Positions 35,786-64,000 of a stretch of DNA of 64,000 nt are shown here, piece after piece. Source of the stretch: Closterium sp. NIES-65. Its lineage: Eukaryota; Streptophyta; Zygnematophyceae; Desmidiales; Closteriaceae. Location of the stretch: positions 333,501 through 397,500 of the forward strand of contig CANXME010002057.1 of NCBI GenBank assembly GCA_948144175.1, given 5' to 3'. Within the stretch, counting starts at the first letter, position 1; the number at the start of each line of letters is the position of its first letter. The translations under genes were made by a program, and so were the position numbers. Below the pieces are notes generated by a model. The model searched no databases and was not told the origin of the DNA. It saw only the letters and a list, made by a program, of their open reading frames with translations.

Positions 35786-38700
35786 ATGACAAAACTTCCA
35801 GCCATGACTTCTGACTATCTAAGAAGGAAATTCATTTTAGCACTATTGTTCCACGAGAGACGTCCGAAGACATTCGTACTTAGTTCATTTCTTATTCTTC
35901 TATTACTGCCCACCCTCTTACCGGGCGGAGAATCATTCTCCTTCCACATCTCGCACCATACTCGTCGATCGACCTCTGTAAAATACGTCCGAGCCTCGTC
36001 CCGAGCCTCGTCCCAATCTTCGACACGACCGTTGCAATCCTCCTGGGCGGAGTGGCCGCGACACGACAATGACACCAGATGGCCTCCGCCGGTCGTATCC
36101 GTTTTGCATTTCTCAGGCGCCGTTGCTCTCGAGTCCAATTTAACGGATCAGATGTCGCCACGTGGACTGTCAGAGATGCAGTCGCGGCTTCATGGAAGCA
36201 TCCGCACGGACGGGTGCGTTCTTATCGGATGTCACACTGCGATACGCCTGAATTCTATTAGAGTACTTGCAGAGTGAGAATGCTTTAGGATGCAGTTAAT
36301 CGTGGGTTTGCTCGATGATTTCCTTCTCTTATGCGAAACCCTACCGTTGCAACACCGTTGCTTTCATTCTCCTTCGGTTGCTTCATTTATCTCACCAGCA
36401 CCTGTGTCTCTCTCGTTACATTCCCCTCCCTTGTATAGCACCTCCCTGCGTGATATTTTTCCTATCTGAAGTCTCTCCCCTTCTCCCCCCCATCACCCCA
36501 CGTTCCCCCCCTCCTCCAACTCCTCCTCCTCCAAACCCCCCCTCCCTTCCACCGTGCTTCTAGCTTTTCCCCGCCCTCCCGATCTCTCCCCACTACCCGC
36601 TCCCCCCCCCCCCCCTCCCGCCTCCTTTCCCGTGCGCAGTTATTACTCCGTGGACGTGTGGTCCAGGTCACTTTTCTTACTCACCTCAAAAACCATTCCC
36701 CCTCCTCCGTCATCCCACCCCCCTCCTCCCCCCCACCCCTCCCCCTTTTCCGCGAGCAGCTATTACTCGGTAGACGTGTGGATCGGGTCGCCGCCGCGCA
36801 AGTTTTCGCTGATGGTGGATACCGGTAGCGCGCTCACCATCGTGCCCTGCTCCTCCTGCTCGCCGTGCGGCGCTCATATGGTAAGACGATCGGGTTATCA
36901 CGTAACACATGCATCTCTAATTCTCTCTGATGGTGGACACGGGAAGCGCGCTCACCATCGTGCCCTGCTCCTCCTGCTCGCCGTGCGGCGCTCACATGGT
37001 ACGGCGATCGATCGGGTTACCACGTAACATGTGCGTGTCGTCGTGTCTTTGTCTTGCAAGTTTTCTCTCATGGCGGAATCAGTGCAGCCATTGCACGGAT
37101 GACCGGTGAGACATAATTCCAAGTGGTGACTTGCGCTGATTCTGTTTTCTGATTCCACTCCCCCCTCCCCCTATCCGCCGTCCGCCTTCTGCAGAACCCC
37201 CCCTATTCCCCCTCCGCCTCCTCCTCCTACCTCCCCGTGACCTGTCGCGGGGGGGCCTGCGCGGGGAACCGCTGCGACCGCCAGCAGCGCTGCGCGTACT
37301 CGCGGAGATACGCGGAGGAGAGCACCAGCGACGGCTTTCTCTCCTCCGACCTCGTCTCCTTCTCCCCCCCGCCTCCCCCTCCCGCGCCCGCCGCTTCCGC
37401 CGCCGTTGTTCCCAAGGAGGAGCGCGCTTCCGCACGCAAAGACTTTCGGCCTTCCGCTTCCTCCTCCTTTTCGTTTTTCTCCTGGTGGTGGTGGCCGTTT
37501 TCCCCTTCCCCTTCCGCCGTCGTTTCCACTTCTTCCGCCTCTTCCTCGTCGTCTTCCCCTTCCTCCTCCGCCCCCGCGGAAGCTTCCTCCGCTTCCCCCT
37601 CCACTTCCTCCTCGACTTCCGCGCAAGCCCAGTCTTCAGCCCCGGGCCCCGTTCCGCCCCTTCCGCGCGTCCTGTTCGGGTGCGCGGAGGCGGAAACGGG
37701 CGCGCTTTCCCGCCAAGCGGCGGACGGCGTGCTAGGGCTCGGGCGGGGGGCGTACAGCCTGCTGGCGCAACTAGTGAGCGCGCGCGCAGTCGCCGCGGAG
37801 GTCTTCTCCATCTGCTACGGCGGAGGGGGAGGCGCTGCGGAATCCGCGGAACTGGCAAAAGGCGCGGGGAACGGGGGGAGTGGCTGGGGATTGTGGCGGC
37901 GGAAGGGGGGGATGGGGAGTGGAGGAGGGAAAGTCGGGGGAGGGGCGAGAGAGCAGGGGGAAATGGGGAGGTTGGGGGGGGAGCGGGGGGCGATGATCAT
38001 GGGGCCTGTGGGGCTGCGCGCGCCTGCGGTGATGCAATACACGGCGTTCGACCGCATGCGCGTGTGAGTAGCATTTAGCGTATGTGAGTGGTGATTAGTG
38101 CATGCGAGGGGGTGTTTTCTCCGGTTGAGCGGGTGCTTACGCATGTGAGGGGGTGATTTGCGCGCGCCTGCGATGATGCAGTACACGGGCTTCGACCGCG
38201 CATGTGAGGAGGCGCAGCTTGTGCGCATGTGAGGGGGTGTTTGCGCGCATTTGAGTGGGTGATTTGTGCGCATGTGAGTGGGTGTTTGCGCGCATTTGGG
38301 TGGGTGTTTGCGCGCATTTGGGTGGGTTGATTTGCACGCATGTGAGGGGGTGATTTGCGCGCATGTGAGGGGTTGATTTGCGCGCATGTGAGGGGGTGAT
38401 TTGCGCGCATGTGAGGGGGTGATTTGCGCGCATGTGAGGGGGTGATTTGCGCGCATGTGAGGGGGTGATTTGCGCGCATGTGAGGGGGTGATTTGCGCGC
38501 ATGTGAGGGGGTGATTTGCGCGCATGTGAGGGGGTGATTTGCGCGCATGTGAGGGGGTGATTTGCGCGCGCCTGCGGTGGTGCAGTACACGGGCTTCGAC
38601 CGCGCATGTGAGGGGGTGATTTGTGTGCATGCGAATGGGTGTTTGCGCGCATTTGAGTGGGTGTTTGCGCGTTTGAGCGGGTGTTTTGTGCGTTTATGAG

Positions 38701-41700
38701 TGAATGCCTGCGGTGATGCAGTAGTGATGCAGTGCAGTACACGGGCTTCGACCGCATGCGCATGTGAGCGGCTTTTGGGACGTCTCAAAAGTCGTTTGTG
38801 AGTGAATGCCTGCGGTGATGCAGTAGTGATGCAATAGTGATGCAGTGCATTACACGTGCTTCGACCGCGCATGCGCTTGTGAGCGGGCGGGCGCAGTTGA
38901 TTTGTGCTGTGCGCATGTGAGGTAACCTGCGCGAGCTAGTGGGTGATTTGCGCACCAGTCAATGGCGGTTTTGATCGCCTCCCCCTCCCTCTCCATTTCC
39001 CCGCTCCCACTCCCTCTCCCAGGGTCACGCCGCTCTATCAGGACAACCTCTCATCCCCCCTGTTCCCGCCCCCTTCCTCTCACACTTTCTCTCTCTCCCC
39101 CTCCCTCTCCCCCTCCTCTCCCTCTCCCTCTCCCTCTCCACCCCCAGCGGCACGCCCTTCTATCAGGTGGTGGTGAGTCAAATTCTTATCGGGGGAGAAC
39201 CGCTCCCAGTGGAGGACGCCCCGCTGCTCTTCTCCTCGGGCTATGGCGTCGTCGTTGACAGCGGCACCTCCTTCTCCTACCTACCCGCGCCGCTCTTTGA
39301 GGCGTTCAAGCACAGCGTCATGGCGCGCGTGGCGAGGGGAGTCAAGATGCTGACGGACACAGAGCCGCAGTACCAGAGCATGTGCTTCCGGTCCACCTCC
39401 TGGACTTCTCTGTGAGTGCGGCCTCTGCTGCTGCTGCTTTGTGGGTAACTTCTCTTTTGCCACTAGTGGCCCATGGTCTAAAGATGCTGACGGACACAGA
39501 GCCGCAGTACCAGAGCATGTGCTTCCGGTCCACCACCTGGACTTCTCTGTGTGCGCACAGATGGGCTGTGTTTGAGTTCTGCTGCTGCTGCTCCTGCTGT
39601 CCGTTCTGCTGCTGCTGTTGTCCTAAGCTCCTGCTACCTCCCTCACCCCCCCTCTGCTGCCCCTTATGCATTGCACCACACGTACCCCTCGTCTCCCTGC
39701 AGGCAAGCCTCCACGCTGGCGTCCTTCTTCCCGTCAGTGGAGCTGGTATTTGGGGAAGGCGCCATCTACCGCCTGGACCCCGAGAACTTCCTCTTCCAGC
39801 ACCGCAAGCGCAGCGGCGTGTTCTGCATCGGGGTGTTCCCCAACCCCGACCAGGGGACCATTCTTGGCGGTGAGTGGCTGCACTGGTACTACTCACACCT
39901 ACCCACTCTTCCATTCCACCACCGCAAGCGCAGTGGCGTGCTCTGCATCGGGGTATTCCCCAACTCGGGCCAGGGCACCATCGTCGGCGGTGAGTGGCGT
40001 GACTTAGTTGCTTTGAGTGACTTGATCTCACACATGGGTTGCACCCTCCTCTTCCCGCACCGCAAGCGGAGATTCAGTGGGTCAATTTGTCAGTGCCTTG
40101 CCCATCCTCTCCCCTCTCTTTGCCCTCACCGACCCACCCGTCCAGGTCTCATGTTCCGTAACACCATGTTGACCTTTGACCGGGTCAACGATCGCCTGGG
40201 CTTCTGGAAGACCCCCTGCGACCAGCTCATGACCCACATTGTGTCGCCTGGCGCGCCTGGTTCGGAACCAGGTCCGGAGCCAGGTTTTGGTGCAGGTTCG
40301 GAATCTGGGTCTGGATTAGAGGAGGAATTAGGCTCGGATATACGGCCTGCAGCAAGGACAATGAATCCGTTAGGGAGGGGCAGGGATCCTCGGGACCCGT
40401 ACACAGAGGAGCAGGCTCGGTCAGGCGGAGGTTCGGCAGCAGGCTTGGGTGCAGGCACAGGTGGACCCAAACCTGACGAGGGCACCCACCCAAGCAGCAT
40501 GACCACACAGGATGCCACTACAAGGGGTGTGCCTGCAAGGGATGTGACTGTAAGAGGCGACAGCAGCAGCAGCAGTGCGAGCAGCAGAAGCAAGCGGGCG
40601 CCGGATGCAGGGCCAGCAGGCAGCGACGACGACATGGCGATGGTGTGGGCTGTGGCGGACGCCATGCCGTCGTACCGCCCGGTGGACTCCACGGGGTGTG
40701 CGGGGTGCGCCAGCCACGTGGACATGGAGCTGCGGTTTCCGTTGCTCTCGTCCGCACAGCTGGACGCGCTGGAGGGGCAGCTGACTGATGAGCTGATCCG
40801 AGAATTATTGCTGGAGCCGGGACAGGTGAGGGCACAGGGGGGCAAGGGCAGGTATGGGCAGGGGGGAGCAAGGGGTGGAAAGGAATGGGCTGGTGAAGGG
40901 CAGGTGAGATGGTGTGGGCTGTAGCGGATGCCATGCCGTCGTACCGCCCGGTGGACTCCACGGGGTGTGCGGGGTGCGCCAGCCACGTTGACATGGAGCT
41001 GCGGTTCCCCCTGCTCTCGTCCGGCTCAGGAACAAGCTGATCTGAGTGCTCATGTGCGAGCCAAACGTCCTCCTCCCCACCGACCCCCCAACAACCTCCT
41101 TCCACCCCCGGTTCTACCCCCCCCCTCGGTTCTGCCCCCGTCCCCACTCGAGCAGGTGGTGATTCAGAGTGTGTGGGGCACGAGTCCCAGCGGGGCAGCA
41201 GCAGAGGTGTGGCTGGTGCCGTATGCGGGCACCACCTTCCTGCCTGCCATCACCGTGCAGCGCGTCAACTCCACCATCAGCCAGCACGCCATGCACCTCT
41301 CGCCTGCGTTTGGGCCCTACAATCTCAGCTCATTCAACGCGCCGCCTCCGGACTTCTCTGGGTGGGTGTTGGGGTGATGTCAATGTGACGTGAACGTGGG
41401 TGCTTGCTGCTTCTCATGCCATTCGCCAGCACGCCATGCACCTCTCGCCTGCGTTTGGCCCTTACAACCTCAGCTCATTCAATGCGCCGCCTCCTGACTT
41501 CTCCGGGTGGGTGTCAATGTCAAGTGATGTGAAGGGGATGTCAAGGTGGGTGCTTCCTGCTTCTGGTCGTGCCATCCGCAATCCACCATCCGCCACCACG
41601 CATGCACCTCTCGCCCGCGTTCGGGCCCTACAACCTCAGCTCATTTAACGCGCTGCTGCCTGACTTCTCCGGGTGGGTGTCAGGGTGGGTGTCAGGGTGG

Positions 41701-43079
41701 GTGTCAGGGTGGGTGTCAGGGGGTGGATGTCTAGCTGATGTGAGGGTCATGTGAAGGGGTGCTTCCTGCTTTTCAATCCATCCCCCACGCTGCCATGCAC
41801 CTGTCACCCGCGTTTGGGCCCTACAACCTCAGCTCATTCAACGCTTAGTGGGAATATACGCTTATAGCGTATATACGCGTATCGTATATACGCTAACGTA
41901 TATACGCTAAACGCTTAAGGGTCGATTTGGTAATACGCTTTTTCGGGCAGGTAAAAACTATCTCGGGCAGGGTGAAAAAGACGTCGTGCTCAAGATTAAG
42001 AAGGTGATCCCTATTCTCATTAATACTTTCGTAGCATTTCCCTAAGTCTGAACGGCGATTGGGGTGGGACGTGGAGTAGACACTAAAAGGAGTAGGTAGG
42101 AATCGGAAGGAGCTCTGCTGTTAGAAAGTGGGAATGCCAACTAGAAAAGACGACTGGAATTTTGCTGGCTGGTAAGTAGCGTGAGTGGGGTTTGGTGGGG
42201 CACGTTTTTGACAGGTTGGAATTCGTAGATAATATGGGTTCCAATGCGGTACCAATCTAATGTTCAAATTTGAACTGCCTGCAACTTCGAAGGCCCACTC
42301 CCGCTTCCCTATACCGTCAAATTGCATTTCGACTTCGGCGAAATGCTCAGCAGAAGATTCCGCATCTTTCTGTACACAAGCGATTTTTTTCCCTGGGCAG
42401 CCCGAAAATTTTTCTGATAGCGTATAGCGTATTAGCTAGCGTATTGCGTTTTGCGTACACATGCTAGCGTGTATACGCTATACGCTTTAGGGTTTGAGCG
42501 TATATTCCCACTAAGATTCAACGCGCCGCCTCCTGACTTCTCCGGGTGGGTGCGAAGGTGATGTGAAGCTGATGCCATGCCATGATGAGTGCTTGCTGCT
42601 TCTCGTGCCATCTGCCACCATGCCATGCACCCCCCCCCTTCCCCCTCTTCTCGCCTCAGTCACCCCTCGTTCGTATTCCCTTCCCACTCGCCTCTTCCCA
42701 CCCTCATCCATCCTCCATTCCCCCCCTTCCCGCTCCCCCCTCCAGCAGCGTGGCTCAATCCCATTCCAAGCCGCAGCTGCGGTGGCTGTGGTTCCTCGTG
42801 GCAATCCCCCTCTTCCTCCTCTGCATCGCTGCTGCCGTCTGGTTCCGAGTGGGGCGAAAGGAGGGGGAAACTGAGGCTGGGAGGAAGAGATTTGTGACGG
42901 TGGGAAGGCGATTGCAGCAGGAGGCAATGGAGAGTGAGAGAAGTGAGAGGATGGAGAGGCATGATAGAATAGAGCGGTTTGAGCGGCATAATAAGATGAT
43001 AGCGCTGACTGCCCAAGGGTCGGGCTCATCGCCGAAGCAGGTTCCTGGGTTTGGGTTGATGAGCGGGAGTGTACATTGA
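35786..43079 (+). CDS. Membrane-anchored aspartic protease (pepsin family A1, plant A1B type)
   Basis: Eight exons give about 1,022 residues: 35786-36213, 36760-36880, 37195-38063, 39148-39411, 39703-39869, 40146-40825, 41156-41361, 42746-43079. All introns are GT-AG and the phases agree. A hydrophobic signal (SSFLILLLLPTLL) comes near residue 32; an in-frame ATG at 35804 is an alternative start. Catalytic motifs are DTGS (Asp about 163) and DSGT (Asp about 510); other family marks are YYSVDVWIGSPP, FGCAEAETG, DGVLGLGRG, FCIGVF and LGFWKTPC. A transmembrane helix (about 925-944) near the C-terminus is followed by a charged tail, as in the plant subfamily anchored in secretory membranes or plasma membrane. 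Oddities are a Ser/Pro-rich insert in exon 3, a Gly-rich insert and a low-complexity block in exon 6, which make it longer than usual. Its substrate is unknown. Confidence 0.88.
36639..36700 (+). repeat. Acceptor-edge echo of protease exon 2
   Basis: A copy of the acceptor and first 22 bases of exon 2 (GCAG, then TATTACTCCGTGGACGTGTGG) lies 120 bp upstream of the real exon with two substitutions. Using it would lead out of the family sequence after YYSVDVW. Confidence 0.8.
36917..37110 (+). repeat. Donor-edge echoes of protease exon 2
   Basis: 36917-37025 repeats the 3' half of exon 2, from the DTGS codons to the end, with its donor changed to GTACGG, plus intron sequence. A much shorter piece near 37056-37075 (GCAAGTTTTCTCTCATGG) copies the segment just before it. 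Confidence 0.85.
38064..38890 (+). repeat. Minisatellite grown from the exon 3 donor site, with exon-end echoes
   Basis: Intron 3 begins with the donor CGTGTGAGTAG. About 25 tandem units of roughly 21-23 bp follow (GCGCATGTGAGGGGGTGATTT), each holding a GTGAGG donor-like hexamer. Longer echoes of the exon 3 end (CCTGCGGTGATGCAGTACAC plus TTCGACCGC) recur at about 38165, 38573, 38708 and 38810. The last two long units (38693-38771 and 38795-38885) are separated by the palindrome CTTTTGGGACGTCTCAAAAG. Confidence 0.9.
39010..39050 (+). repeat. Acceptor-edge echo of protease exon 4
   Basis: CCCAGGGTCACGCCGCTCTATCAGG about 130 bp before the real acceptor copies the start of exon 4 (CCCAGCGGCACGCCCTTCTATCAGG). 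Confidence 0.7.
39478..39560 (+). repeat. Donor-edge echo of protease exon 4
   Basis: A nearly exact copy of the last 70 bp of exon 4 (AAGATGCTGACGGACACAGA onward) lies 66 bp into intron 4, with the donor changed from GTGAGT to GTGTGC. Confidence 0.9.
39919..40080 (+). repeat. Donor-edge echoes of protease exon 5
   Basis: 39919-39995 copies the last 70 bp of exon 5 with its GTGAGTGG donor. A third, short piece (CACCGCAAGCGGAGATTCAG) sits at 40058-40077. Confidence 0.88.
40911..41035 (+). repeat. Internal echo of protease exon 6
   Basis: About 112 bp of exon 6 (original about 40641-40757) are repeated in intron 6 with about 5% change and then decay. Confidence 0.88.
41425..41843 (+). repeat. 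Three donor-edge echoes of protease exon 7
   Basis: The end of exon 7 (CACGCCATGCACCTCTCGCC to the GGTGGGT donor) is repeated at about 41425-41512, 41590-41680 and 41790-41843. After the second echo the donor region itself is tandemly repeated four times (GGGTGGGTGTCA, 41672-41722). The third echo is split by the MITE at 41844-42515 and resumes at 42524-42560. Confidence 0.9.
41844..42515. mobile_element. hAT-like MITE in intron 7 of the protease gene
   Basis: A 672-bp non-coding element with inverted ends CTTAGTGGGAATATACGC and an exact 8-bp target duplication ATTCAACG (41836-41843 and 42516-42523). Both subterminal regions hold clusters of the small palindrome GCGTATATACGC. The 8-bp duplication points to hAT, but the TAGTGGG-type ends are not a canonical hAT signature. 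It interrupts the last echo of exon 7, so the echo existed before the insertion. Confidence 0.88.
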
Positions 43080-43759: not shown

Positions 43760-44478
43760 TCAAGTGTTCTTTTCCAGCTGGGCGAGGGCAGGTGTGAGGT
43801 AGTTGTTGGCTCGATCAGGTAAATGTGCCACCTGTTAGAGGGAGATAGAGTGTGATGGAGATGGTATGGGAGAGACACCGAGACAGGGAGGAAAGTGAGC
43901 AGTTGTAAGAGGAATAAGCTTTTTTTTTAACACAAACAACAATGCAGAAGAAACAGAAGTGCAGGAATTGAAGCAATGGAGTGAGATCAGGTGTGTTGCA
44001 CTCACCAGTTCATATAGACCCGCATTGTCTGTATACTCATAGCAGATCTGCAGAGAAGAGCAAATCAGCACACATGAACAGATAAGACTAATCCATGATA
44101 GCCCAGTTTAGTGCAAACAAGCACAGAGGAATTAGAGAACAGGAGGGTTTCTATGCAGAGAAACAGAGAGTGAATATTGAATAACAACCCATATGAACAG
44201 CACAGAAGCAATCAGTGCAGAGAATGGTGAGCATGGTTACCACATTCACATGGTTACCGCATTCACATGGTTACTGCATTCACATGGTTACTGCACTCAC
44301 ATGGTTACTGCATTCACATGGTTATCACATTCACATGGTCATCACATTCACATGGTCACCACATTCACATGGTTACCACATTCACTCACATCGAAGCTCT
44401 TGTTACGGGCTGTCGGGTCATGAAGAGACTTCACACACACGTCTGCCACGTCAGCACAGCTGATACCCTGATGTGTGA

Positions 44479-44511: not shown

Positions 44512-46326
44512 TGTGTGTGTGTGTTTGGGGGACGATGGGAGGGGGCAAAGAGGGGTGATGGGGTTTCACAGGTAAGGCAGGGATGGGGGTTGGAAGAAGA
44601 CCATCATGTCTCACAGTTGTGCGCACAGATGCGCACAGATGCGCACAGATGCGCACAGATGCGCACACCACACCCTCCCACCCACTCCTTCCCCCACACA
44701 AACCCAAGCTCACCTGCTTGATTTGATTCTGTTTTCCTGGTCGAACACCAGAGCCTTCCTCCCCATTGCGCCTCTCGTTTCACAAACACACCACACCCCA
44801 CCACCACACACCCATCCCATGCACCCACACACCCACTCCCCCACACCCAAACCCACACCCACGCTCTGCCCACATCCTCACCTGCGTGATTCTGTTTCCC
44901 TGGTCCAACACCAGCGCCTTCCTCCCAGGTGACTTTTGAGTCGACTCTTGAGTGACTTTTGAGTCGACTAAAAAATCCTCACCTGCGTGATTCTGTTCCC
45001 CTGGTCGAACACCAGCGCCTTCCTCCCTCCCGGCTCCTCCAGCAGCGGCCCTGGGCTGAGCGCACAACACAATGGTGTATCCCCCGCCAACACCCCACCT
45101 CACGCGTCCACTCGCTACACCCATGAACAATCACACCACACACACCCACCTGCGTGATTCTGTTCCCCTGGTCGAACACCAGAGCCTTCCTCCCCCCCGG
45201 CTCCTCCAGCAGCGGCCCTGGGCGCACAATGGTGTAGCCCAGCCCGCTGTTGCGCAGATGCGTCTCTGCTGCCTGCAATGCACACAAATAGAGGAGAGAT
45301 AGCGGAGCAAGTCAGAGACGGAAGGCAAATAGAGGGGGTTCTGGGCGCACTATGGTGTAGCCCAGCCCGCTGTTGCGCAGATGCGTCTCTGCTGCCTGCG
45401 CGTGGCAAGGAAAATGCAGTAGGAAGGGAAAATAATCTGTGATTCCAGCACCATTCATTTGGCCCAGCTCTCCCCCCATAAGTGTGAGGCCCTGGGCGCA
45501 CTATGGTGTATCCCAGCCCGCTGTTGCGCAGATACGTCTCTGCTGCCTGCACGTTTTAGGGGGGGTAAAGACAAAGAAGGGGGGGGGGTCCCTACCCAGC
45601 TCGCTCAACAGAGGCCCTGGTTGCTTGAAAGGCCTTGGGCGCGCACTGGCAGATGTTGCGCAGTGACTTTTGAGTCGACTCAAAAGCCCTATGTTGCGCA
45701 GATGGGTCTCTGCTTCCTGTATGGCATGTGGCGGGGTCAAATAGGGAGGTCAGCATGCAGATGGGTCTGACTGCTAGATCAACAGAAGCCCTGACTGCTT
45801 GAGAAGAGGCCCTGGGTTGCGCGCACTGGCTGGGGTAACCCAGCCGACTGCTCGAGCTGGCATGGATTGCAGAGAACTCACCATCTTGGCTTCTGCGACT
45901 CTCTCCCGACTCTCCTCCAGCACTCCTGCTTGTTACTAGTGCGCAAGTGATGCAGAGTGATGCAGAGTGATGCAGAGTGATGCAGAGTGATGCAGAGTGA
46001 TGCAGAGTGATGCAGAGTGATGCAGAGTGATGCAGAGTGTGCATAACTGCACTGCCAGCAGCACTCGTGCCATCAGCACAGGCGGAAAGCACTCAACATC
46101 TTGGCCTTGACAACTGTCTCTCTCCTCTCCTCCGGCACTCCTGCTTGTTACTAGTGTGCAAGTGATGCACAGGGGGAAAGCACAGGGGGAAAGCACAGGG
46201 GGAAAGCACTCACCATCTTGGCCTTGACAACGGTCTCTCTCCTCTCCTCCGGCACTCCTGCTCCTGAACATGACACCAACACAAAGTCCGTCTCCTCTCC
46301 TCCCTGCGCTCCCACATCCATGCATC

Positions 46327-46357: not shown

Positions 46358-49300
46358 GGGATATGCAGATACAGGGACAGAGACAGAGACAACGAGTGGA
46401 GGGGAGGAAACGAATGTTGCAACGAGTTAATCTCCCAAGCAAGACACCAACACAAAGTCCGTCTGCTCTCCCTTTCCCTCACCTTCCTCCCCACCTTCCT
46501 CCCCCCCTTCCTTTTTCCCAACCCTCTGGAAAGGCCTTGACGAATTGCAGATCGAGATTGAAGCTGTTTGGACTTTTGAGGCGTCTTAAAAGTCGTATTG
46601 CAGGTCGAGATTGAAGCTGTTTGGGCTAGCGGGTGCGGCAGCTTGAGTTGACGCTAGCACATCAGAACCCACCTCCCCCCTCACCCTCTCCCCTCCCCCT
46701 TCCCCTTTAGTATCTGTCCCCCCTCCTCCACACACTCACAGGGAAGCCCTTGACGTATTGCAGAGCGAGCTTGAAGCTGTCCGGGCTAACAGACGCAGCA
46801 GCTTGAGTTGACACTAGCACATCAGAACCCAACCCCCTCAATTCACACCACCTCCCTCCCCTTCCCCGTCCCCCACGCCCTTCATTATCTTTCCTTCCCT
46901 TACACAGACACTCACAGGAAAGGCCTTGACGTATTGCAGAGCGAGCTTGAAGCTGTTTGGGTCGGCAGGGGCGGCGGCGTTGTCCCCTTCTGCGCCGGCC
47001 TTGGATGCCGCCCGGCCCGGTGGCAGGGGCGCTGCCACGGATGGTTTCTGGTGAAGTTGAAGGGAGAAAGGAGAGAAGAGAGCGGTGAAGAGGGGTAGAG
47101 TGGGGTGAAGAGAGGGAGAGTGGGGTGAAGAGAGGGAGAGCTTGGTGAAGAGTGGTAGAATCTGGCAGTTAAAGGATACCTTGTGATTTGTCAAACCCCT
47201 TATGCACTTCAACGCTTGTTAATCCCGTTCTATTCCTCAAGGCTCATCTACCCTCTCCATTGAGTGTAATTCACCATGCAAGGTTGCTTGTATCGCAGGG
47301 CAAGTGAGGGGCAAGTGAGGAGATGAGACTGTAATCAATAGATCTGCAACATCATTTCTAGCCCTCAATGTCTGAGAACCCCATTCCCCCGTCTGTGACT
47401 CACCGTGCATCGCTGCTCAACTTTTGAGTCGACTCAACTTTTGACTTTTGAGTCGACTCAACTTTTGACTTTTGAGTCGACTCAAAAGTCAATGTCTGAG
47501 AACCCCATTCCCCTGTCTGTGACTCGCCGTGCGTCGCTGCTCGTATCGCAGAGCGAGGGAAGAGATGAGGGTGGGACCAAGCGGTTTGATACCCCATTCC
47601 TGATTTGTTAACCGCGTTTCACGTCCCAAGGTCTGTAATCCCCATTCTACTGAATGTAACTCACTGCGCGACGCCACTCGTAGCGCAGAGCGAGGGAGGA
47701 GATGAGAGCGGGATCAAGCAGTTTGGTTACTCCATTCTACCCCCCAAGAAATGTTAGCACCGTTCCACAACATCATGCAGCTTACCGCGCGACGCTGCTC
47801 GTATCGCAGAGCGAGGGAAGAGATGAGAGTGGGATCAAGCGGCGGGTCAGACGGGGATGATGCGCGGAAGGCAGAGAAGGGGACGCGGATCTGAGGAAAA
47901 ACAGGGAGGGGGGGAGATGGGGGGAAGGTGGGGGAGGGGGGTGCGCGGGGGTGTGGGAGGGTGGAGCGGGGTTAGAGGGTGGGAAGGCGTGGGTTGGACG
48001 GGGATGATGGGCGGAAGGGGGAGCAGGCGATGATGGGCGGAAGGGGGAGCAGGGGATGATGGGCGGAAGGGGGAGCAAGGGATGATGGGCGGAAGGGGGA
48101 GGAGGAAATGCGAATCTGGAGAAAGAGCGAATGGGGAGGAGGAGGCCCCGAAAATGGAGGGGACAGGAGGTGAAGGGTGGGTTTGATAAAAACGGGGGAG
48201 AATGGGGAAGAAGAGCGGAAAGGGAAGTTAGAAGTCAGAAGGGGAGGGAGGGGAGGGAGGGTGTGTGAGAAAGGGAAGCGACGGGGACTAGTGGTGGTTG
48301 TTGAGTCGACTCAAAAGGACTAGTGTTGATTGTGAAAATGAGGCGAGAACTGGACATGAGATGCTCTACGTGCCAGCCAAGAGCAGGGAATGCAAATCTA
48401 CTTTTTCCACCTTCATCTCTCACACATTCTGCTCTCCCCTCTCCGTGTCTTCACAACAGCCACACACTCATGCTCCTCCTCCCTCCTCCTCCACCTCTTG
48501 AGACTCAACTCAAACGTCACATCCTCCTCTCTCACTCACCGTGTTCTGCCCTTTCCTTGTCTTAACAACAGCCACATACTCATACTCCTCCTCCTCCACC
48601 TCCTCCTCTTCTTCCACCAAAATCTCCCCATCCTCCCCCATTCTCTCCACGCGCGTCCCATCCCTCGCCACACGCAGCACCAGCGAGTATGGCTTGCCGT
48701 CCGACACGAACCGGAACACCAGACCCTCGAAGCTGAGGGGACAGGGAAGGGGAGGGAGTTGGGGAGTTGGGTCAAGTAGGGGCAGAGCGGGAATATCAGC
48801 CCACCCACAGCACCAGCGAGAAAGGCTTGCCGTCCGACACGAACCGGAACACCAGACCCTCGAGGCTGAGAGGATGGGAGAACGAAGGGGGAGAGAGCAG
48901 AGGAGTTGGGATGGGTGGGGATAGACGGGAAGGCCAGCCCACCCGCAGCACCAGCGAGTAGGGCTTGCCGTCCGATACGAATCGGAACACCAGACCCTCG
49001 AAGCTGAGGGGACAAGGGAAGTAGATGAGGAATTGGGGTGAGTCGGGACAGACGGACAAGCGAGCGAATAGAGGAGTTGGGATGAGTGATGACCCAGGAC
49101 GAGGTCAGCCCTCCCGGGGCACAAGCGGGTAGGGCTTGCCGTCCGACACCACACGAACAGGAAGCGAGGAGGGGATGGGGGGAAAAGGGGGGAGGAGGGG
49201 AGGGAGGGAGGAGGGGAGGGGCAGAGGTGGGAAGGGGGAAGGACATAGGGGGATGGCGGAAGGGGAAACGGAATCACTTAGAAACCAACCCGACCATCAC

Positions 49301-50515: not shown

Positions 50516-51641
50516 GACAAGTGCGGCCCAGCAATGAACCACCAAATTAGGCGAACACGAATGACTCAAAAGGCCTGAATAAAAATATGTTCAACCACCA
50601 GTCGCTCACTTCTCTCGTTCTCCTTGGAAGCCAGGCTTGGAGAATGTCAGAATGCCACATGGGAGGCAGAGTTTGGAGCTGGGGAATTTGCTCTGGCAGG
50701 CATTGAGATTTCCTCGGTTTGGCGTTGGGTTTGGCTCGGTTCTACCTTGGGATTGGTTCGTTCAGGCTGGGACGCGTCGAAGGGTGACGTGGAATTGCGC
50801 GCCAGGCTGGGCTCCCAAAAGTGTGGTCGCAAGGCAGCCATTGGGACCTTCGGTGGGTCCAGATTGGATCGCATTGACGTGGAATCGAAGGCTTCCACGA
50901 CACCTGGGCCACGATCGACAATGCTACGTGGTCAGAGCAGATGCCAGAAATTTCGCACGACGATGTAGGTTCACTTTACGAAGTTTACCTAACTGCCAGC
51001 AGTAAGTACACCGAACAGAGGCAAGAGTGTTAATGCATCTAATTAAACCAGAATAGCCTACGAGAATGCTAACGTAGCTGGAAGCCCCATTATTGTAAAG
51101 TCATCATAGAATGACAACTTATGCCTCACTAAGCATTGCACAGCATTATCTCATAAGATCTGGTTCACCAGTACAAAAGCATAAACAAAAGCCTACTAAA
51201 AGCAACTTTCTAAGCATAAACATAAGCCTACAAAAAGCAACTTTCTGGTTCACCAGTACCAGCCATTTGGAACTGTTGCAGACCTAACTAACAAACCTAC
51301 AACAATCACTCGAAATTACACTGCAGAACAGGCTTTCAAACACCCCTATTTCACAAGCTTAGTGATGAAGACATCCCAATTCCTGCCCCACAGTTGATTC
51401 TTGCAACTGGAACCCACCACACCATGCCGAGCCATTTTGCAGCCAGGCATGAAGCTGCTCCAAGCGATTCCTGCTCCTGACCAAGAATGGTGCAGCCACC
51501 AACTTTGGAAGGGCACAAATAACGAACGATCCGCTTAGACACTCAAAAGTTTCAGCTGTCCAGCCGGCACAAGCATTACCCGTTTCATCCAGAGAAAACG
51601 ATGGAGGTCGAGATTGCAGAGTTCGGTAAATTCACTGAGGG
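50516..51641. other. HCF173 upstream region and 3' flank of the next gene
   Basis: About 1.1 kb without a recognised gene. It should contain the HCF173 promoter. A local tandem duplication (about 51165-51265, unit AGCATAAACA-AAGCCTAC-AAAAGCAACTTTCT) and the phrase CTGGTTCACCAGTAC repeated on both sides of it are the only structures I see. Confidence 0.5.
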
Positions 51642-56400: not shown

Positions 56401-59400
56401 GCCTCGTCCCGAGCCTGCTCCAGCTCACCCGCCCGCACCTCAGCAGCTACGGCCCGAGCCAACAGCTCCTTCTCCTTCCCCTCCGCCTCCCTCCTCCTCT
56501 CCTCCGCCTCCTCCCTCACTCCTTCCAACTCCTTAACCGTCTGCTCCTGCTTCTCCTGCCATCTCTTCACCTCTTCTTCCACACCCTCCTTCGCAGTTAC
56601 CACCTCAGCCAGAGCAGCAGCATGGCTCACAATAAGAGCCTCTTTCTCATGAGTCAATCGCTCAATGTCTCCCTTCAAGCCCTCCCTTTCCTTCTCCAGT
56701 GCCTCAATCTCCCCCCTCGCCTTCCCCACTTCCTCCTCCCGCTCGCTCCTCTCTTTCGCCACTCCTTCCAGCTCGGCCCGAACCTCCGCCAGCTCCGCTT
56801 CCCGAGCCTCTGTTGCAGCTTCGGCAGCTCCAAGGTCGGCAACCGCAGCGGCAAGCTTTCCTATAAGCTCTCCATTCTCTTTCTTAAAAGCTTCCAGCTC
56901 CCCTTTCAACCCTTCAGCGGTCCCTTGTGCCTGCTCAAGTTCAGCAGTCAAAGCCTCTTCTCTCTTCTTTCCCTCCTCCTCTCTCTTCCTCCCCTCCTCC
57001 TCTCTCTTCTTCCCCTCGTCCCTCTCCTCCCTCACCTTGTTTATTTCCTCCACCAGCCCCCCCGCCTCTCCAGACTTACTCTCTAAATCGCTCTTCATCG
57101 CATTGTACCGCTCGTTCAGTGCCTCGTGATCTTTCTTCAGGGAATCATGCGTGGCAGTCAGCGCTTCCAGCTCAGCATGGATGCCAGCCAGATCAGAATA
57201 CGATTCCGCCAGCTCAGCAGCTACAGCTACCCGCCCCTCCTTCTCCTCCTCAAGCTCACTCATCAACCCTTCCTTCGCTATAGTCACCTCCTCAATCTTA
57301 ACCGCCAGCGCTGCCTGTGCTGCCGCCAGCGCAGCACATTCTGACGTCAGCTTCTCGTTTGCTGACTTCAGCTCCGCGTGCTCTGACATCAGCGCTTGGT
57401 GCTCTGACGTCAGCACCTCATGCTTCCCCTTCAGCTCTCCCAATTCCTCCTCCCTCCCCCCCAACTCCCCCCTCACCTGCTTCACCTCCTCTTCCAACAA
57501 ACCCTTCGCTTTAGTCACCTCCTCTACCTCCTTTACTCTCTGCTCCAGCTCTCCCTGTGCTGCTGCCAACTGACCCTCAACCGCCTCCCTGGCTGCAATC
57601 TCCTCCTTCCGCAGTCTCTCTGTTTCCGCCTTTTCGAATTCCGCCGCCTCCCTCCCCATCCCCATCTCCTCCATCCTCCCTTCCATCTCTTCTATCCTCT
57701 CATGCAATTCCTCCCTCTCCCCTTTCACCCCTTCTAACTCCTTCCTCACCTCATCTCTCTCCTTCACCAATTCATCCCTCTCCCTCCTCACACTCTCAAG
57801 CTCCTTCTCACTCTCCTCCCTCCCTCCTCTCTCCCTCTCCACCTCCTCTTCTAACCCCCTCACCTTCTCCTCCAAACCCCTAACCTTCTCCCCCAAAACA
57901 CCCGCCTCCCCAGTCGCAACCGCAAGCGCCCCTTCCGCCACACTCTTCCCCGTCCTCTCCTCCCCCACCTCCTTCTCCAGCCCCTCAACTCTCTCCCTCA
58001 GTTCCCCCACCTCCCCAGTAGCCGCTGCCAAAGCCGCCTCTACCTCCCTCCTCCCCTTCCTCTCCTCCTCCACCGCTCCCTTCAAACATTCAATCTCCTT
58101 CCCCTGCTCGTCTACCCTCTGCTGTAATTCTCCCACTCTCTGCTCCAGCTCCCCCACCTGCCCGTCTCTCTCCGCCACTTTCTCCCTCAAATTCTCTGCT
58201 TCCTTCAACGCTTCTCTAACAGCTGCCTCCTTCGCCTGTATTACTTCCTCCTTCTCCCGAATATCCTTCTCCTTCGCCCGTATTTCCTCGTCCTTCTCTC
58301 GCATCTCCTCCTCCTTCGCCCTTCTAACCTCCTCCAACTCCTTCCCCAACTCCTCATGCTTCCCCTTCCACTCCTCCGCCTCCTTCCTCGCCTCCTCATT
58401 CCTCCCTTCCAACGCCACCATCTCCCTCTCCCTCTCCTCTCCCCTCTCTCTCAACTTCCCCAACTCCCCCTCCGCATCCTCAACCCGCGCTTTCAGCTGC
58501 CCTATCTCCTCCTCAGCTTCCCCTTTCTCTCCTCTCAACCCTTCCAGTTCACCCTTCAACCCCTCCACTTCCCTCTGCAGCTTCTCGTTCCCATCCTCCA
58601 TATCATGCAACTCGTTATTCGTTTTATCATGCAGCTGCTGCAGTTGCTCCAGCTCCCGCCCTTGCTCCTCGCACTTGCCTCTCATACCCTCCATCTCCTC
58701 TTCCATTTCCCCCTTCTCTTTCGCCATCACCTCTAATTCCTTCCCCCTTGCCTCCCACTCCCCCTTAACCGTTCCCAACTCCTCCGTTATCTCTTTGTTC
58801 TCACTCCTAAGGGACTCCATCTCCTCTTTAAGCTTTTCTAGCTCCTCACAAGTCCCTTTATGCTTCCCTTGCAGCCCCTCCAACTCGTTAGAAGACTCCT
58901 CGTGTTTCGCTTTAAGCTCATCCAGTTCCTTTTCCGCATCTGCAGCCTCTTTCCGTAACCTTTCCACCTCTTCCCTCGCCTCCTCCAGCTCGCCACGTGT
59001 CACCTTGTGATTCGCCTCTTCTTCACTCAGCTGCCCGCTAACCTTCTCATTCTCCGACTCAGCAACCAACAGCTCTGCCTCTTTCGCCGCCAGGGCAGCC
59101 CGGGCAGCTGCCAGCTCAGCCGTCAAAACTTCCGAGGCTGCCCTGAGAGACTCGACTTCAGCCTTCAACGGAGCCACCTGCCCGTCTTCAATATCTTTCA
59201 AGGCTGCCCGGATTGCTTCTTCTGTCTTGGCCGCCTGTTCCTCCTCCATCTTCTTCCTCATCTTAACTTTGGCAGACTCAAAGGAAGCCATTTCCTTCTC
59301 CATAGCAGCCAGTGCAAGCTGACAGGTGCAGACGAAAGGGAGGCGTGGGGCGGAAGGGAGGGGGGGAAGGGAGTGGGGAGAAAGGGACAGACGAAAGGGA

Positions 59401-61737
59401 AGTGGGAAGAGAAGGAGGGGTTGGTTGGGGAGCATAAGGGACAGATGAGGCTGCGGCAGAGCGCCAGCCTCCAGCGGTTTCAAACTTGCACTCGCACATC
59501 CCCCAGTGCACTGCGTGCTACTCTTGATATTTAAGGCGCCTCAAAAATCGTCCAGCGGTTTCAAAGCGGCACTTGCACATCCCCCAGTGCACTGCGTGCT
59601 ACAATTGAGGCGTCTCACTCGCCTTCGTTCCCAATCTCCTATTCAGGTGCCTCAAACACGCATCTTAATATGTGCCTTATGCACACGTCAACGCGTGACT
59701 TTACGCGCACCTCAACCGTACCTGACACGTGCCTCCACACGCGGACCCATGCGTTCTCCTCACGTCATTCACACAATCTACCACCCCCATCCACCGCCTT
59801 ACGTGAAGCCTGACGAATCTCAGCACACTCGTTCTTCTGTTCCAACCCGTATGCCACCCTTTTTTAAAACGCTCAAAAGATCATGAAGTCTTACGCACCT
59901 CAACAAGCCACTCTTTATCCAATCCCTAGACCACCCTTTATCACCCCGAACCCTGGTCCACCCTCTCCCACCCCTAATTCCACCCCGCGCACCTGCAGGC
60001 TCTTTTTGCGCTACTCGCTGATGACCATCTCCTCCTCCTCTTCCACCACCTCCACCACCTTGAGCTGACAGACCTTCCCCATGTGCCGCGCCTTCAGCAC
60101 CCCTCACTCACCCCTCATCCGAGCCTAAACCACCCCTATTCCGAGCCTAGTCCGAACCTAATCTGAGCCTTCTCACCTGCAGGCTCTTGTTGCGCTGCTA
60201 GCTGATGACGATCTCCTCCTCCACCACCTTCAGCCGGCTAACCTTCTCCATGTGCCGCGCTTTCAGCGCCCATCAACCACCCTTATTCCGAGCCTGATCC
60301 GAGCCTAATCCGGACCTAACCCGAGCCTGATTCGAGCTTAGCACCCGGCGCACCTGCAGGCTCTTGTTGCGCTGCTCGCTGATGACGATCTCCTCCTCCA
60401 CGACCTTGAGCCGGCTGACCTTCTCCATGTGCCGCGCCTTCAGCGCCGCCAGCTCGAAGTTACTCAGCTCCAGGTCCTCCTCGAACTTGTGCAGCATCGT
60501 CTCCATCTGTTTGAGCCGTTTGAGGGAGGGGAGAAAGTGGAACAGGGTGGGGTGGTTTGGGGGAGAGGAACAGTGGGTGGATGTGTTGAACAGCCAACTC
60601 GAAGTTACTCAGCTTCAGGTCCTCCTCGAACTTGCGCAGCATCGTCTCCATCTGGAAAGTGAATGGGGTGGGGTGGTTTTGTGAGAGAGGAAAAGCGGTT
60701 AAGAGGTGTGGAAGAGCCAGCTCGAAGTTACTCAGCTCCAGGTCCTCCTCGAACTTATGAAGCATGGTCTCCATCTGAGAGGAGTCGTTTGAGGGAGGGT
60801 AGTGGGGGAGGAGAGGTTGACTGGTAAGGGTATCAAACGACTGGAAGGACGAGTGGTAGAGGTGCAGAAGGGCCAGCTGAAAATCGCACATCAGGCCCTA
60901 CTAGAATTTGCTACACATATCGAAAGCGCACAATGCTGCATTCTCTAGGTTCTTACTCGCAGAATCCAGCCCGCGTCGTACCTTACGAATTTCTTCCCGC
61001 GTGTAATTCCCGCCCGGCGAAAACGACCGCTGAGTTGGCGACGCCTTCGCAGCAGCAGGCTTGGCCGACGAGCCTGGGGAAGACAACCCTAGCGGCTCAG
61101 GCTCGGCACCCGCGCGGCTTTTCGCCTTGGTTCGGGAATCCCGAGGCGATTCCTTCGTCCCATCCCTGACGGAACCAGCGGAACCTCCCACAGGCGGAGA
61201 ATCCTTCACCCCAGCGGATGCGTCTTTTCTCGCTGCCACAGGATCTTTGTTTCCCCCAGATGATCCGGTCGTCGTGTGACGAAGCTTAACCTGGGGTAAG
61301 AAGGACGAGGAAGACGACGACGAGGAGGATGGACCTTTTGCGCTATCGCCTGACGATGGTCGTGGCCCTTTAGCCGCGCTAGACCCAACCGGCCTGAGCC
61401 CTAAGCGGTTAGGTGCTGGCCCTTTGGCTTCCTGCTTCACATCTCCCTTAATCTCGTCTTTAAAGTCTCTGGGTTCTGACGCGTTTCCGTCGTAAGACTG
61501 CGGACTAGCAAACCCGCCTGACGGATGGCGGATAAGTCCTTCCGTGCTTACAACCGGTCCAGAGGACCGCCGCGTGATTTTCGGAAGGTCGCCGGAGGAG
61601 CCAGCGCTCGCATTGGCTGCGTGGAGTTTCGCCACGTAAGCAGCGGGAGCTCCTTTATTAGCTGTGACTCGTTTACCGAAGAGGCTGCTGAGCTCCTTTA
61701 CAGACTTGTTGCTCGGCTCGTCCGGATCCGACGACAT
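53478..61737 (-). CDS. Very large coiled-coil protein
   Basis: Solid part: exon 60506-60354 (51 residues, METMLHKFEEDLELSNFELA...) and a giant exon 59318-53478 (1,946 residues), joined in phase. The giant exon is nearly one long heptad-rich coiled coil (Glu, Lys, Ala, Leu) with alanine runs, then a Gly/Ala/Ser-rich region and a basic C-terminal tail (GWRKSVMGGFLGKK). A likely first exon runs from the ATG at 61737 to about 60950: a Ser/Pro-rich, disordered stretch ending TREEIRKVRRGLDSAS before a good donor (GTAAGAAC). That donor's phase does not match the 60506 acceptor, so a further small exon or a different junction is needed. Such proteins act as cytoskeletal or membrane tethers; the family is not recognised. 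The 60506-60354 exon is surrounded by echoes on both sides. Confidence 0.7.
59470..59620 (-). repeat. 52-bp direct repeat joined by palindrome
   Basis: TCCAGCGGTTTCAAA to CACTGCGTGCTAC is present at 59470-59521 and 59551-59602. The spacer holds TTTAAGGCGCCTCAAAAATC, and a second half-palindrome (TTGAGGCGTCTCA) follows the right copy. Confidence 0.88.
59990..60275 (-). repeat. Donor-edge echoes of the 51-residue exon
   Basis: Two downstream copies (59993-60090 and 60175-60272) of the last two thirds of exon 60506-60354, each with the donor (CTGCAG then GTG). Confidence 0.92.
60595..60780 (-). repeat. Acceptor-edge echoes of the 51-residue exon
   Basis: Two upstream copies (about 60595-60660 and 60715-60780) of the acceptor and first 60 bp (CAG then ATGGAGACGATGCTGC) of exon 60506-60354. 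Both end within the same LSNFELA codons. Confidence 0.92.
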
Positions 61738-63080
61738 TGTCACGTGATTTGAATAATTAGGTATTTCAAAACGAGAGAGACGATGAAATCAACAAATACA
61801 CAAACAAAAACGCACACAGGAAAGACTACTAGGCCTGCACAGAGAGCTTCATAAGCAGGAGGACAAGCACAGGAGAAGTTTCCGAGAACGAAAGTGTGAT
61901 TCTACCGGAAACCGTCGCGCGCAAACGCTATGATGCTATGACTACTAAGCGTCAGTCCCGGCACACAAAGTCAACGAATCGAACAGTGCCATGAGGACAA
62001 GGTGATCTGAAACACGCACACACGCCTGACAATACCACAGCTGAACCAAGCACTGTCGTGGCACCTACAACTGCACTGCTGCTACTGCAGCAAGCAAGAA
62101 GAAACCTTTCACACCAGCACCATGAGTACTGCAACACCTCCTGGGATTTTGTTCTGTGCTGCTTTACTGGCAGTGGCCGAGTTATGCCGGAACGGTGGTG
62201 ATGTTTGAAGCTAGGGTTCTGTACGTTTTAATGCGGTGGGGTGAGATTTTCACTCGCCTTCCCCTTGACACCACAACTGCGACATTACCGTTACGATTGC
62301 GAGAGCGCCACCGATTAAAACGCAACAAACCGATCTGCACCTGATGGTATGCTGGTTGAAACCAGGGTCATCAGGTTTCTTCTTGCGTGGGGATTGGATG
62401 AGAGCAAGTGGTGAGTCATATTTTCGCGGGAACTGCTGGCAAAAGCTATGCACCAATACCGTGATTCCTCGATTCCCGATATGTGTGACTAGACCGGAAG
62501 GTCCTCTTGTTTGCTTCACTGGGTTGATGGCGCGGAATTTGGGACCAGTCATTTGTCAGCTCGTCGAGGAGGCTAGCGGGCGGGATGTGTTCGAAATTTC
62601 TGCGATTCCTGCTCACGCCAGTGCCGTGCGGGTGATGTGATGACCATGACCACCCCACTCGCATCTCTCGAGACGAGAGGCCGCACCGCACGCACCGCCA
62701 CGTTTCCGACCTGTCAGAGATACTGTTCGGAAAAATGCTTCCAGTCTGGAGGAGACAACCCTGCCGTCCGGTTCCGGTCGTTCGTTACGACTTTACAGTG
62801 ACGTGAAGAAATGCTTTGACACTTCAATGAAAAGGAATATGATGCAAAAATTGAAAATGAAGCATCAACTACGTAAGCTACACAAGGCACACATCGTGCC
62901 TCGAATATATCCCCTTGCCACACCTGGAAGTCAAGTTAACTACCTACAATCTTCCAACTTCATGGTTCGCCAAGATTCGGTAACTCGAAAACTATTTAAC
63001 GTCATGGAGCACCTTTATTCATGCACCATTTCTATTTGTGTGAGGGCCCTCCTCGATTTGTGACAAATGACAATTTAATC
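61738..63080. other. Intergenic stretch
   Basis: 1.3 kb between the coiled-coil gene start and the OSBP-related gene end, both minus strand. A plus-strand open frame (62344-62640, 98 codons from an ATG) shows no family resemblance, and I do not call it a gene. Confidence 0.5.
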
Positions 63081-64000
63081 TTACGCCTTGTCAGCATCGC
63101 CATCGGTCTCCTCCGGTGCAAACATGTCCAGCACACCGGACCAGTCCCGCTTCTCCCGTCGCTCCCAGTAACCCCCAGTGTACCGCCATGTGTTGTTAGG
63201 CCCCGAGGGCTTGAACCACCGTGGGCCCCACCCTGGTTCCCCGTCTTTGAGCGCCTGATTCGACAGAGTTATAAAGGGGAAAGGGCAATATGGTCATAAA
63301 TATTCAAATTAGGCCCGGCTTTCTTCCCCAACCGTGAGGGGTGGCAGAAAGAGTGGAGAAGCATGAGAAAGCGGGCAAGAGAAAGGGGGGTAAGAGCGAT
63401 TGGTGACTGAAATCACGTGTTGGTGCAACAAAGCAGTGTAGTCCTGGGCACGAGATGCACCTTGCGCTGGCGCTGCTCGAGGCGGCACTTCTCCTGGTTG
63501 GCAAAGTCGTACCGCCCCTCCTCCAGAGCCCTCTGATCCTCCCTCAGCCGCGAGTCCGTGGGGGGCAGACATTCCTGTAGGGGACAGAGGAGGAGGGGAT
63601 AGGGGAGGGGTGAGATAATGGGTGAAAGCTGAAGTCGTACTGCCCCTCTCCCCCAGCGCCCTCTGGTCGGCCCTCCCTCAGCCGCGAGTCCGTGGGGGGC
63701 AGACACTCCTGTGATGGGGAGAGGAAACGGGGGAGGAGTGGGTGGGAGGAGAGAGTTGGTGGGAAGAGCTGAAGTGGGCAGTTGGTTTTTGAGGCGCCTC
63801 AGAAATCTCTGTCTGCTGGACGGACGCGGACATGCCTGTGGGGTGCAGAAAGGGATGGAGATAGGGAGTGGGGTATAGGTGCTCTATCTAGGGACCAACC
63901 TACGGGGAGAACGATAGATGAGAGGTCGTCTTCCCATATGAAGCCTCATCCTGACAGACGACTAAATCCCCCCACACACGCATTTTAGGGCCATCCAGAC
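63081..64000 (-). CDS. Oxysterol-binding-protein-related protein (ORP), C-terminal exons
   Basis: Two phase-0 exons are in the window: 63574-63461 (38 residues, [20 protein letters not shown]... RLEQRQRK) and 63254-63081 (57 residues, [34 protein letters not shown], stop TAA). These are the end of the OSBP/ORP lipid-transfer domain, where [14 protein letters not shown] and the W-PRWF, Y-GGYWE and W--I--F motifs are highly conserved. ORPs carry sterols or phosphoinositides between membranes at contact sites. The rest of the gene lies beyond the right edge of the window; I found no further exon up to 64000. Acceptor-edge echoes of the first of these exons lie upstream of it. Confidence 0.9.
63640..63850 (-). 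repeat. Acceptor-edge echoes of the ORP exon, with palindrome
   Basis: 63640-63712 copies the acceptor and most of the exon (CAG then GAGTGTCTGCCCCCCACGGA). A shorter relative is at about 63800-63845 (CAG then GCATGTCCGC). Between these two lies TTTTTGAGGCGCCTCAGAAA (63786-63805). Confidence 0.8.

Follow-up and report, generated by a model that had tools for sequence, protein, structure and literature searches.

We wanted to investigate why a short palindrome recurs between direct duplications in one stretch of the genome of Closterium, a streptophyte alga close to land plants. The stretch, called here the window, comprises 64,000 bp of Closterium sp. NIES-65 (contig CANXME010002057.1, positions 333,501 to 397,500; C1759:333501-397500 in the searched assembly of 874,075,685 bp and 2,400 contigs). 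A first-pass annotation had described eight sites where the palindrome lies between the arms of a direct repeat, and had proposed either an insertion mechanism with long staggered duplications or break repair leaving a palindromic scar. We consider it likely that each palindrome is the head of the pseudo-long terminal repeat (pLTR) of an endonuclease-lacking retroelement with the architecture of a Penelope-like element (PLE), and that it represents a minimal insertion flanked by a long duplication.

Palindromes and their direct arms

The motif CTTTTGAGNCGNCTCAAAAG, with up to three mismatches, was found 10 times in the window (shuffle mean 0.05). All matches lay from position 38772 on, and the reported confinement to the host-gene half therefore holds for the window. 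The coordinates are collected in Table 1. The arm scores of sites 1 to 8 were 95, 94, 22, 52, 93, 22, 92 and 84, and among 2,000 random host-half positions 4.9% reached 52 and 12.55% reached 22. Strong arms (score at least 52) were present at six of the nine sites of the earlier annotation (binomial P about 1e-6, for sites chosen there partly for their arms). The description of eight sites between direct arms stands in so far as arms abut the palindrome at 8/8; sites 3 (11 bp arms) and 6 (16 bp) are weak alone, both scoring 22. At site 3 the best alignment is a different, longer one, and the 11-bp arms were read directly from the sequence. At site 6 a looser test, with arms up to 45 bases from the palindrome, gave a score of 17, within the background. 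The ninth site (63786-63805) had been placed between two exon echoes; it has no abutting arms (score 4), and the echoes were not confirmed as arms. We detected no arms at a decayed palindrome, 8b, at about 59603-59621 (score 7). Half-sites CTCAAAAG at 50565, 51542 and 59872, considered as truncated copies, scored 8, 7 and 28, which gives no clear support.

The adjoining 200 kb of the contig provided an arm check independent of the earlier choice of sites. In the resulting 264 kb (window plus adjoining 200 kb) we searched for TTTTGAG-N4-CTCAAAA, a wider motif in which the outer base is free, with up to two mismatches, and allowed arms within 45 bases of a cluster. There were 70 matches in 41 clusters. 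Arms scoring at least 50 were found at 22/41 clusters as compared with 123/1,200 random positions, and arms scoring at least 24 at 32/41 as compared with 189/1,200. Outside the window 17 of 32 clusters scored at least 50 (P about 2e-9) and 26 at least 24. Genome-wide, the motif with up to three mismatches occurred at 60,314 places (reversed control: 1,007), and exact TTTTGAG-N4-CTCAAAA at 30,327 places (reversed control: 4). The earlier observation is confirmed and applies to the genome as a whole. IMG/VR contained 0 exact matches.

Letters were available for 43 exact places, namely the first ones on three contigs, with tandem arrays counted. Their core was TCGA in 20, GCGC in 10, ACGT in 7 and AATT in 2 (39/43), and the other four were one-base changes of these. 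The exact cores in the 264 kb were TCGA (14), AATT (3), GCGC (3), ACGT (1), TCAA (1) and GCTC (1). The sequence could be taken for a linker carrying a SalI site, as would be expected of an assembly or library artefact with an adaptor-like palindrome. However, there are four core variants, the arms are several per cent diverged, sites are common to a second contig, and coding copies are present in reverse transcriptase (RT) open reading frames (ORFs), as described below. We regard the chance of an artefact as negligible.

The source retroelement

The copy at contig position 214686 is extended on one side, and a 61-nt query from this copy gave 114 genome matches. We aligned 20 of these loci, and some of them show a 436-bp repeat that starts with the palindrome and is followed by an ORF. 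At locus L032 the RT reading frame adjoins the palindrome and the pLTRs are arranged head-to-head. The RT of L032, used as a query, gave at least 128 matches, many of them in regular arrays spaced about 3.6, 6.0 and 8.9 kb. Locus L045 (C1541:143301-147400) holds an element that can be followed end to end. Its palindrome at 78-97 is the head of the first 436-bp repeat (pLTR). ORF1 has 486 codons from stop to stop, with the first ATG at 485, and the RT frame runs from stop to stop over 1783-3735. A second palindrome (3610-3629) lies inside the RT frame, where it codes for KLLSRLKS, and the second repeat starts there and ends at 4042.

This architecture is Penelope-like in several respects. The 436-bp repeat stands at both ends of L045 and reaches about 26 nt into ORF1 if the first ATG is used, as a pseudo-LTR does. 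The head-to-head pLTRs and the regular RT arrays agree with the tandem and inverted arrangement of PLEs, for which tandem copies have been published in general (PMC11167929). The first-pass annotation knew of no described element of this form. This cannot be maintained, because the accessible part of a report on Adineta vaga (PMC3846280) already describes palindromes at pLTR 5' ends. In Pen2 and Pen3a of that species, as here, a palindrome (18-bp or 38-bp) stands at the 5' end of the pLTR, the pLTRs include the first ORF codons, and inverted head-to-head pLTRs occur (same part of PMC3846280).

The RT alignment consensus contains LGLGLKFIPTP, DVxSLYPSIP, GTAMGTP and KRYIDD, which we take to agree with PLE motifs. 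Relatives of the RT were found in Selaginella, Cryptomeria and Closterium, among others, and the ORF1 protein had five matches, all named Closterium. A PDB sequence search gave no RT relative, with one chance match (E 0.25). We did not detect the GIY-YIG nuclease of canonical endonuclease-containing PLEs by Pfam in ORF1 or in the RT ORF, nor was it among the Pfam labels of the 120 RT relatives listed. A genome-wide six-frame search, which intron-split genes could escape, gave 0 GIY-YIG matches (three candidates scored), and 12/14 control genomes were positive. On these sequence comparisons, the palindromes derive from a retroelement with Penelope-like architecture; the PLE label is based partly on the motifs that we assumed above.

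The target duplications differ from the short ones known from Adineta. In Adineta Penelope elements they measure 8-10 bp where reported and some copies have none, as far as the accessible text goes (PMC3846280), while those in Closterium measure 11 to about 110 bp. The accessible parts of two reports do not make duplication length a fixed defining trait of PLEs (PMC3846280, PMC11167929). A transposon with terminal inverted repeats, or a miniature inverted-repeat transposable element, was rejected because of this variation in length and because the source is an RT element.

Two further observations concern the element family. The pLTR of L045 carries CTGAAGAAGGC-N6-GCCGAAACCGGTTACCAC at 365-390 and 3897-3922, and CTGAAGAAGGC...GCCGAAACC at L045:365 presumably resembles a minimal hammerhead ribozyme core. 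Contigs C927, C969, C614, C714, C744 and C2347 carry regular RT tandem arrays with units of about 6.0 and 8.9 kb, and in those sampled (C927, C614, C2347) the palindrome was found in none. They are possibly telomeric or satellite arrays.

The palindrome as coding sequence and as border

We looked at 19 further RT loci, a sample that includes near-duplicates. The palindrome was present at the corresponding place in 14 of them, and it is imperfect in one (L054). In 13 of the 14 the reading frame passes through it as [ILVF]L[SR][RIC]LK, while the palindrome of L065 is known as DNA only. The peptides were ILSRLKS, VLRRLKT, LLRRLKS, LLRCLKN, FLRILKK, FLRILKI, VLRRLKS and LLSRLKN, and the palindrome encodes the C-terminus of the RT ORF (LLSRLK in L045). 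The cores at the RT loci were the same TCGA, GCGC, ACGT and AATT as in dispersed copies, plus GTGC in L054. In nine distinct palindrome versions 93.3% of cells were paired, with both-sided changes in 4/10 pairs, and the covariation score (0.306) was reached by 0/500 shuffles. These results support the claim that the palindrome is under pairing constraint. The earlier attribution of the varying but palindromic core to selection for, or templating by, the fold holds as to the constraint. The fold alone does not account for the variation, because the palindrome codes for LLSRLK, LLRRLK or LRILK in different element families and these coding differences contribute.

The hairpin could also be an independent tiny mobile element that was once inserted in the PLE RT ORF and retained. 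The palindrome far outnumbers the RT (30,327 exact places as compared with at least 128 matches) and can stand alone, and its peptide pattern was found in 1 (from Closterium Yama58-4) of the 120 RT relatives listed, several of which are partial. An independent element would not account for the corresponding codons in 14/19 RT loci with family-specific compensated variants, for the coincidence of the palindrome with the pLTR border, or for the downstream extensions of dispersed copies, which follow the element sequence. We therefore find this origin very unlikely.

The palindrome marks one end of the dispersed copies. The 21-base downstream junction of one family was found at 785+836 places with up to two mismatches (control: 1+0), while the upstream junction of the same family was found at 12+4 places (control: 0+0). 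All 8 exact upstream-junction places are RT loci by position. This count is independent of family choice by downstream match. We also compared 52 distinct dispersed copies with their best element family: the match scored 0-2 upstream and reached up to 36 nt downstream. Since it was the downstream side that decided the best family, the test of the upstream side is one-sided, and downstream matches up to about 5 nt mean little. An upstream extension that is the reverse complement of the copy's own downstream side was seen in 18/52 copies (score at least 4, up to 17), as expected if the end of the complementary DNA (cDNA) folds back and self-primes. By these junction counts, the palindrome is the hard upstream border of the dispersed copies.

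Direct repeats flank copies of different lengths. The full element L045 is flanked by a repeat of 72/74 bp, the solo pLTR L037 (435 bp) by a perfect repeat of 37 bp, and many hairpin inserts by arms from 11 to about 110 bp. In four of the five shorter inserts that we aligned (L041, L027, L039, L030) the arms adjoin the insert or lie within about 22 bases of it. We tested eight window sites for uninterrupted copies. Two of them cross both junctions of site 4 (46741-46829 and 46917-46978). At sites 2, 3 and 5, copies in the vicinity cross the right junction. The uninterrupted echoes are likely to represent the state before insertion. One arm of site 2 holds an exon end and a splice donor, which suggests that the insertion itself made the exon echo. 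Among 40 scored candidates, C9 is the one other near-full-length match to 44.7-48.7 kb, and it covers the whole stretch. Locus L066 shares the insert of its counterpart locus, and neither C9 nor L066 gave an empty site. Flanks with distant matches, a possible source of empty sites where inserts lie in repeats, were found in the sequence examined for 7/41 clusters, and the traced matches were other hairpins or a second copy of the same locus.

Some tandem arrays carry the palindrome at each unit (periods 37, 63, 64 and 77 bp, and 15 copies of a 41-bp unit). Such arrays would be expected if palindromes were hot spots of DNA breakage in older repeats, with the echo arrays present first and the hairpins promoting further duplication. 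However, at most window sites the arms meet the palindrome within a few bases, with the palindrome only between arms, and the copies of site 4 without palindrome are uninterrupted. We think a hot-spot origin hardly probable; the same idea may explain the growth of arrays after insertion. The 15 copies lie at contig positions 73942-74535 (L005:9942 into L006), and the same decayed palindrome, CTTTTGAGTCGATTCAAAAG, recurs in each of them, which indicates that a hairpin plus arm can become a satellite. In a separate comparison, L066 and contig position 144564 had four differences in 261 bp, two of them within the 20-bp palindrome, so hairpins may mutate faster than their flanks.

The host half of the window contains genes whose introns are rich in diverged exon echoes. 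An HCF173-like gene lies at 49.3-50.5 kb (99% match to a Closterium sp. Naga37s-1 protein), and ORFs with Copia-like and Gypsy-like LTR-retroelement domains occupy about 0.2-32.5 kb. The extended hairpin GTGACTTTTGAGTCGACTCAAAAG (45664-45690 and others) starts with GT and ends with AG, and AGGTGA/TCACCT extensions resemble splice donors; inserts next to exons might therefore be removed by splicing or move the splice sites. Directly before site 1, at about 38401-38570 and upstream, there is a minisatellite of about 23 bp (TTGCGCGCATGTGAGGGGGTGAT). An exon echo of 71 bp (39344-39414 and 39481-39551, 98.6% identical) has a 66-bp spacer, which holds a different 12-bp palindrome, GCCACTAGTGGC, without the PLE palindrome. 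The 671-bp element at 41845-42515, with inverted ends TTAGTGGGAATATACGC / GCGTATATTCCCACTAA and a flanking 9-bp direct repeat ATTCAACGC, resembles a short Mutator-type transposon.

Table 1. Palindrome inserts and their arms in the window (positions counted from the first base of the window).
Feature	Position	Basis
Left direct arm, site 1	38691..38771	alignment
Hairpin insert, site 1, ACGT core, one stem mismatch	38772..38792	motif scan, alignment
Right direct arm, site 1	38793..38886	alignment
Left arm, site 2: intronic echo of HCF173-like exon end and splice donor	44875..44926	alignment, exon comparison
Insert, site 2: two tandem palindrome copies, TCGA core	44927..44975	motif scan, alignment
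Right arm, site 2; overlaps exon matching P0001 residues 592-618	44976..45027	alignment, exon comparison
Left arm, site 3, 11 bp, weak alone (score 22)	45653..45663	read from sequence
Insert, site 3, perfect palindrome, TCGA	45664..45690	motif scan, sequence
Right arm, site 3	45691..45701	read from sequence
Left arm, site 4	46541..46571	alignment
Insert, site 4, GCGT core	46572..46593	motif scan, alignment
Right arm, site 4	46594..46624	alignment
Left arm, site 5	47365..47418	alignment
Insert, site 5: three tandem palindrome copies, 24-bp period	47419..47488	motif scan, alignment
Right arm, site 5	47489..47542	alignment
Left arm, site 6, 16 bp, weak alone	48285..48300	alignment
Insert, site 6, left side shortened	48301..48316	motif scan, alignment
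Right arm, site 6	48317..48332	alignment
Left arm, site 7	48413..48496	alignment
Insert, site 7, decayed palindrome	48497..48524	alignment
Right arm, site 7	48525..48607	alignment
Left arm, site 8	59470..59521	alignment
Insert, site 8, GCGC core, left side decayed	59522..59550	alignment
Right arm, site 8	59551..59602	alignment
Second decayed palindrome (8b) beside site 8, no arms	59603..59621	arm score
Palindrome site 9, GCGC core, no abutting arms	63786..63805	motif scan, alignment, arm score

A possible mechanism and its relation to known systems

Nuclease-free retroelements are believed to make use of free DNA ends. The analysis above shows the source element, its hard border, the snap-back extensions and the flanking duplications. 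What we infer is the use of broken ends as primers, the point on the RNA where copying begins and the part played by the host, as follows. A staggered break with complementary overhangs of about 11-110 nt would supply a 3' end as primer for the RT. The RT would copy element RNA, starting at or near the hairpin, and the new cDNA 3' end would fold on itself at the palindrome, so that copying would stop and self-prime back. Fill-in of both overhangs by the host and end joining would leave the order arm, hairpin, arm. Arms made in this way can take in exon ends and splice donors, and so give exon echoes. Tandem palindromes (sites 2 and 5, and the arrays) could be due to template jumps or later slippage. 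Both ideas of the first-pass annotation, insertion with long staggered duplications and break repair with a palindromic scar, fit this course.

Single steps have precedents. Breaks with complementary 43 bp 3' overhangs gave small tandem duplications by fill-in and joining in mouse cells (accessible part of PMC8355091). In vitro, a PLE RT acts on both strands and begins inside its RNA, at a stem-loop (PMC11167929). Telomerase apparently copies its own RNA into breaks (PMC2246262, in the part available), and the Adineta palindromes were interpreted as a sign of self-priming (PMC3846280, likewise in part).

Plain end joining of staggered breaks could also give tandem duplications, with hairpin DNA of the element captured as filler and no target-primed RT. 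The fill-in of 3' overhangs in mouse cells, as given in the accessible text (PMC8355091), and the compatible arm lengths agree with this, as do hairpin-only inserts without the pLTR 3' end. However, the supposed filler shows the same end and the same hard border time after time. The 435-bp solo pLTR and the full element carry the same type of duplication, which points to the element's own copying, and we judge plain end joining to be unlikely.

Several observations weigh against an origin of the inserts from an endonuclease-lacking PLE. As to the element, the Pfam RVT_1 match to the RT was below the cut-off, we compared no named PLE or Penelope protein, and the name Penelope was on none of the 120 RT relatives listed; the possible intron-split GIY-YIG genes mentioned above belong here too. 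An Rfam scan of the element gave no hammerhead ribozyme match. As to the palindrome, it was absent from 5/19 RT loci, the most distant ones, its outermost pair was broken in 5/9 versions, and further pair types in the covariation measure were unremarkable (reached by 158/500 shuffles). As to the arms, sites 9 and 8b are armless, 9/41 clusters score below 24, a level reached by 15.75% of random positions, and the wider test allows arms up to 45 bases from the palindrome. In L043 the best arm alignment lies away from the insert. Tandem echoes without palindromes are abundant in the host half, so some arms may predate the insert. As to the state before insertion, no copy spanned any junction at sites 6, 7 and 8, the junction copies of site 1 were minisatellite matches, and no polymorphic empty site was seen in a second haplotype or strain. 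Finally, short inserts do not have the pLTR 3' end that full elements have, and ordinary 5' truncation therefore does not explain them. Truncation of the type known from long interspersed nuclear elements was rejected, since it is the pLTR head, not the 3' end, that stays constant.

Athena (named in PMC3846280) and Coprina are endonuclease-deficient PLEs. They are RT elements without GIY-YIG, a nuclease that we did not find here either, and are expected to use existing 3' ends or breaks. Both are described as mostly located at chromosome ends, whereas the Closterium inserts are interstitial and partly in genes. The Penelope elements of Adineta have a GIY-YIG nuclease and low copy number (accessible part of PMC3846280); in contrast, in Closterium we found no nuclease, tens of thousands of short hairpins, duplications to about 110 bp and a coding palindrome. 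Poseidon of Anolis shows an internal RT start at an RNA stem-loop with both strands cut, which helps explain odd ends; unlike here, it has a nuclease preferring AT-rich DNA, and hairpin-only inserts are not described in the main text (PMC11167929). At interstitial telomeric repeats an RT also copies a short RNA template into a break, with some target duplications, but the template is telomerase RNA and the duplications are a minority (10/155 loci in Table 1 of PMC2246262, in its accessible part). Fill-in tandem duplications comprise tens of bp at staggered breaks, as here, with no retroelement hairpin at the junction in the part of the report available (PMC8355091). A literature search (Closterium palindrome, variable-length target duplication, Naiad/Chlamys, Penelope in Closterium) gave no report, with subscription journals mostly outside its coverage.

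In summary, we tentatively suggest, as a possibility somewhat short of even, that an endonuclease-free retroelement polymerase may be in effect a genome-wide writer of break repair in Closterium. Staggered breaks by the tens of thousands, many of them next to exons, would each keep a readable hairpin tag together with a duplication of 11-110 bp. The hairpin would serve as RT codons, as the place where cDNA stops and self-primes, and as pLTR border, and exon echoes, possibly also new introns, would in large part stem from the duplications. The insert would then tag the break and the duplication record the stagger, so that break-repair events could be scored by the tens of thousands within a single genome. 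If this is true, such events would be a test of the use of free ends by nuclease-less retroelements. The compensated changes in LLSRLK/LLRRLK also make the palindrome a clear example of coding sequence held to a palindromic form. Self-priming of cDNA would be a possible account of the origin of pLTR borders, and the duplications would supply local exon copies in algae that are near relatives of land plants.

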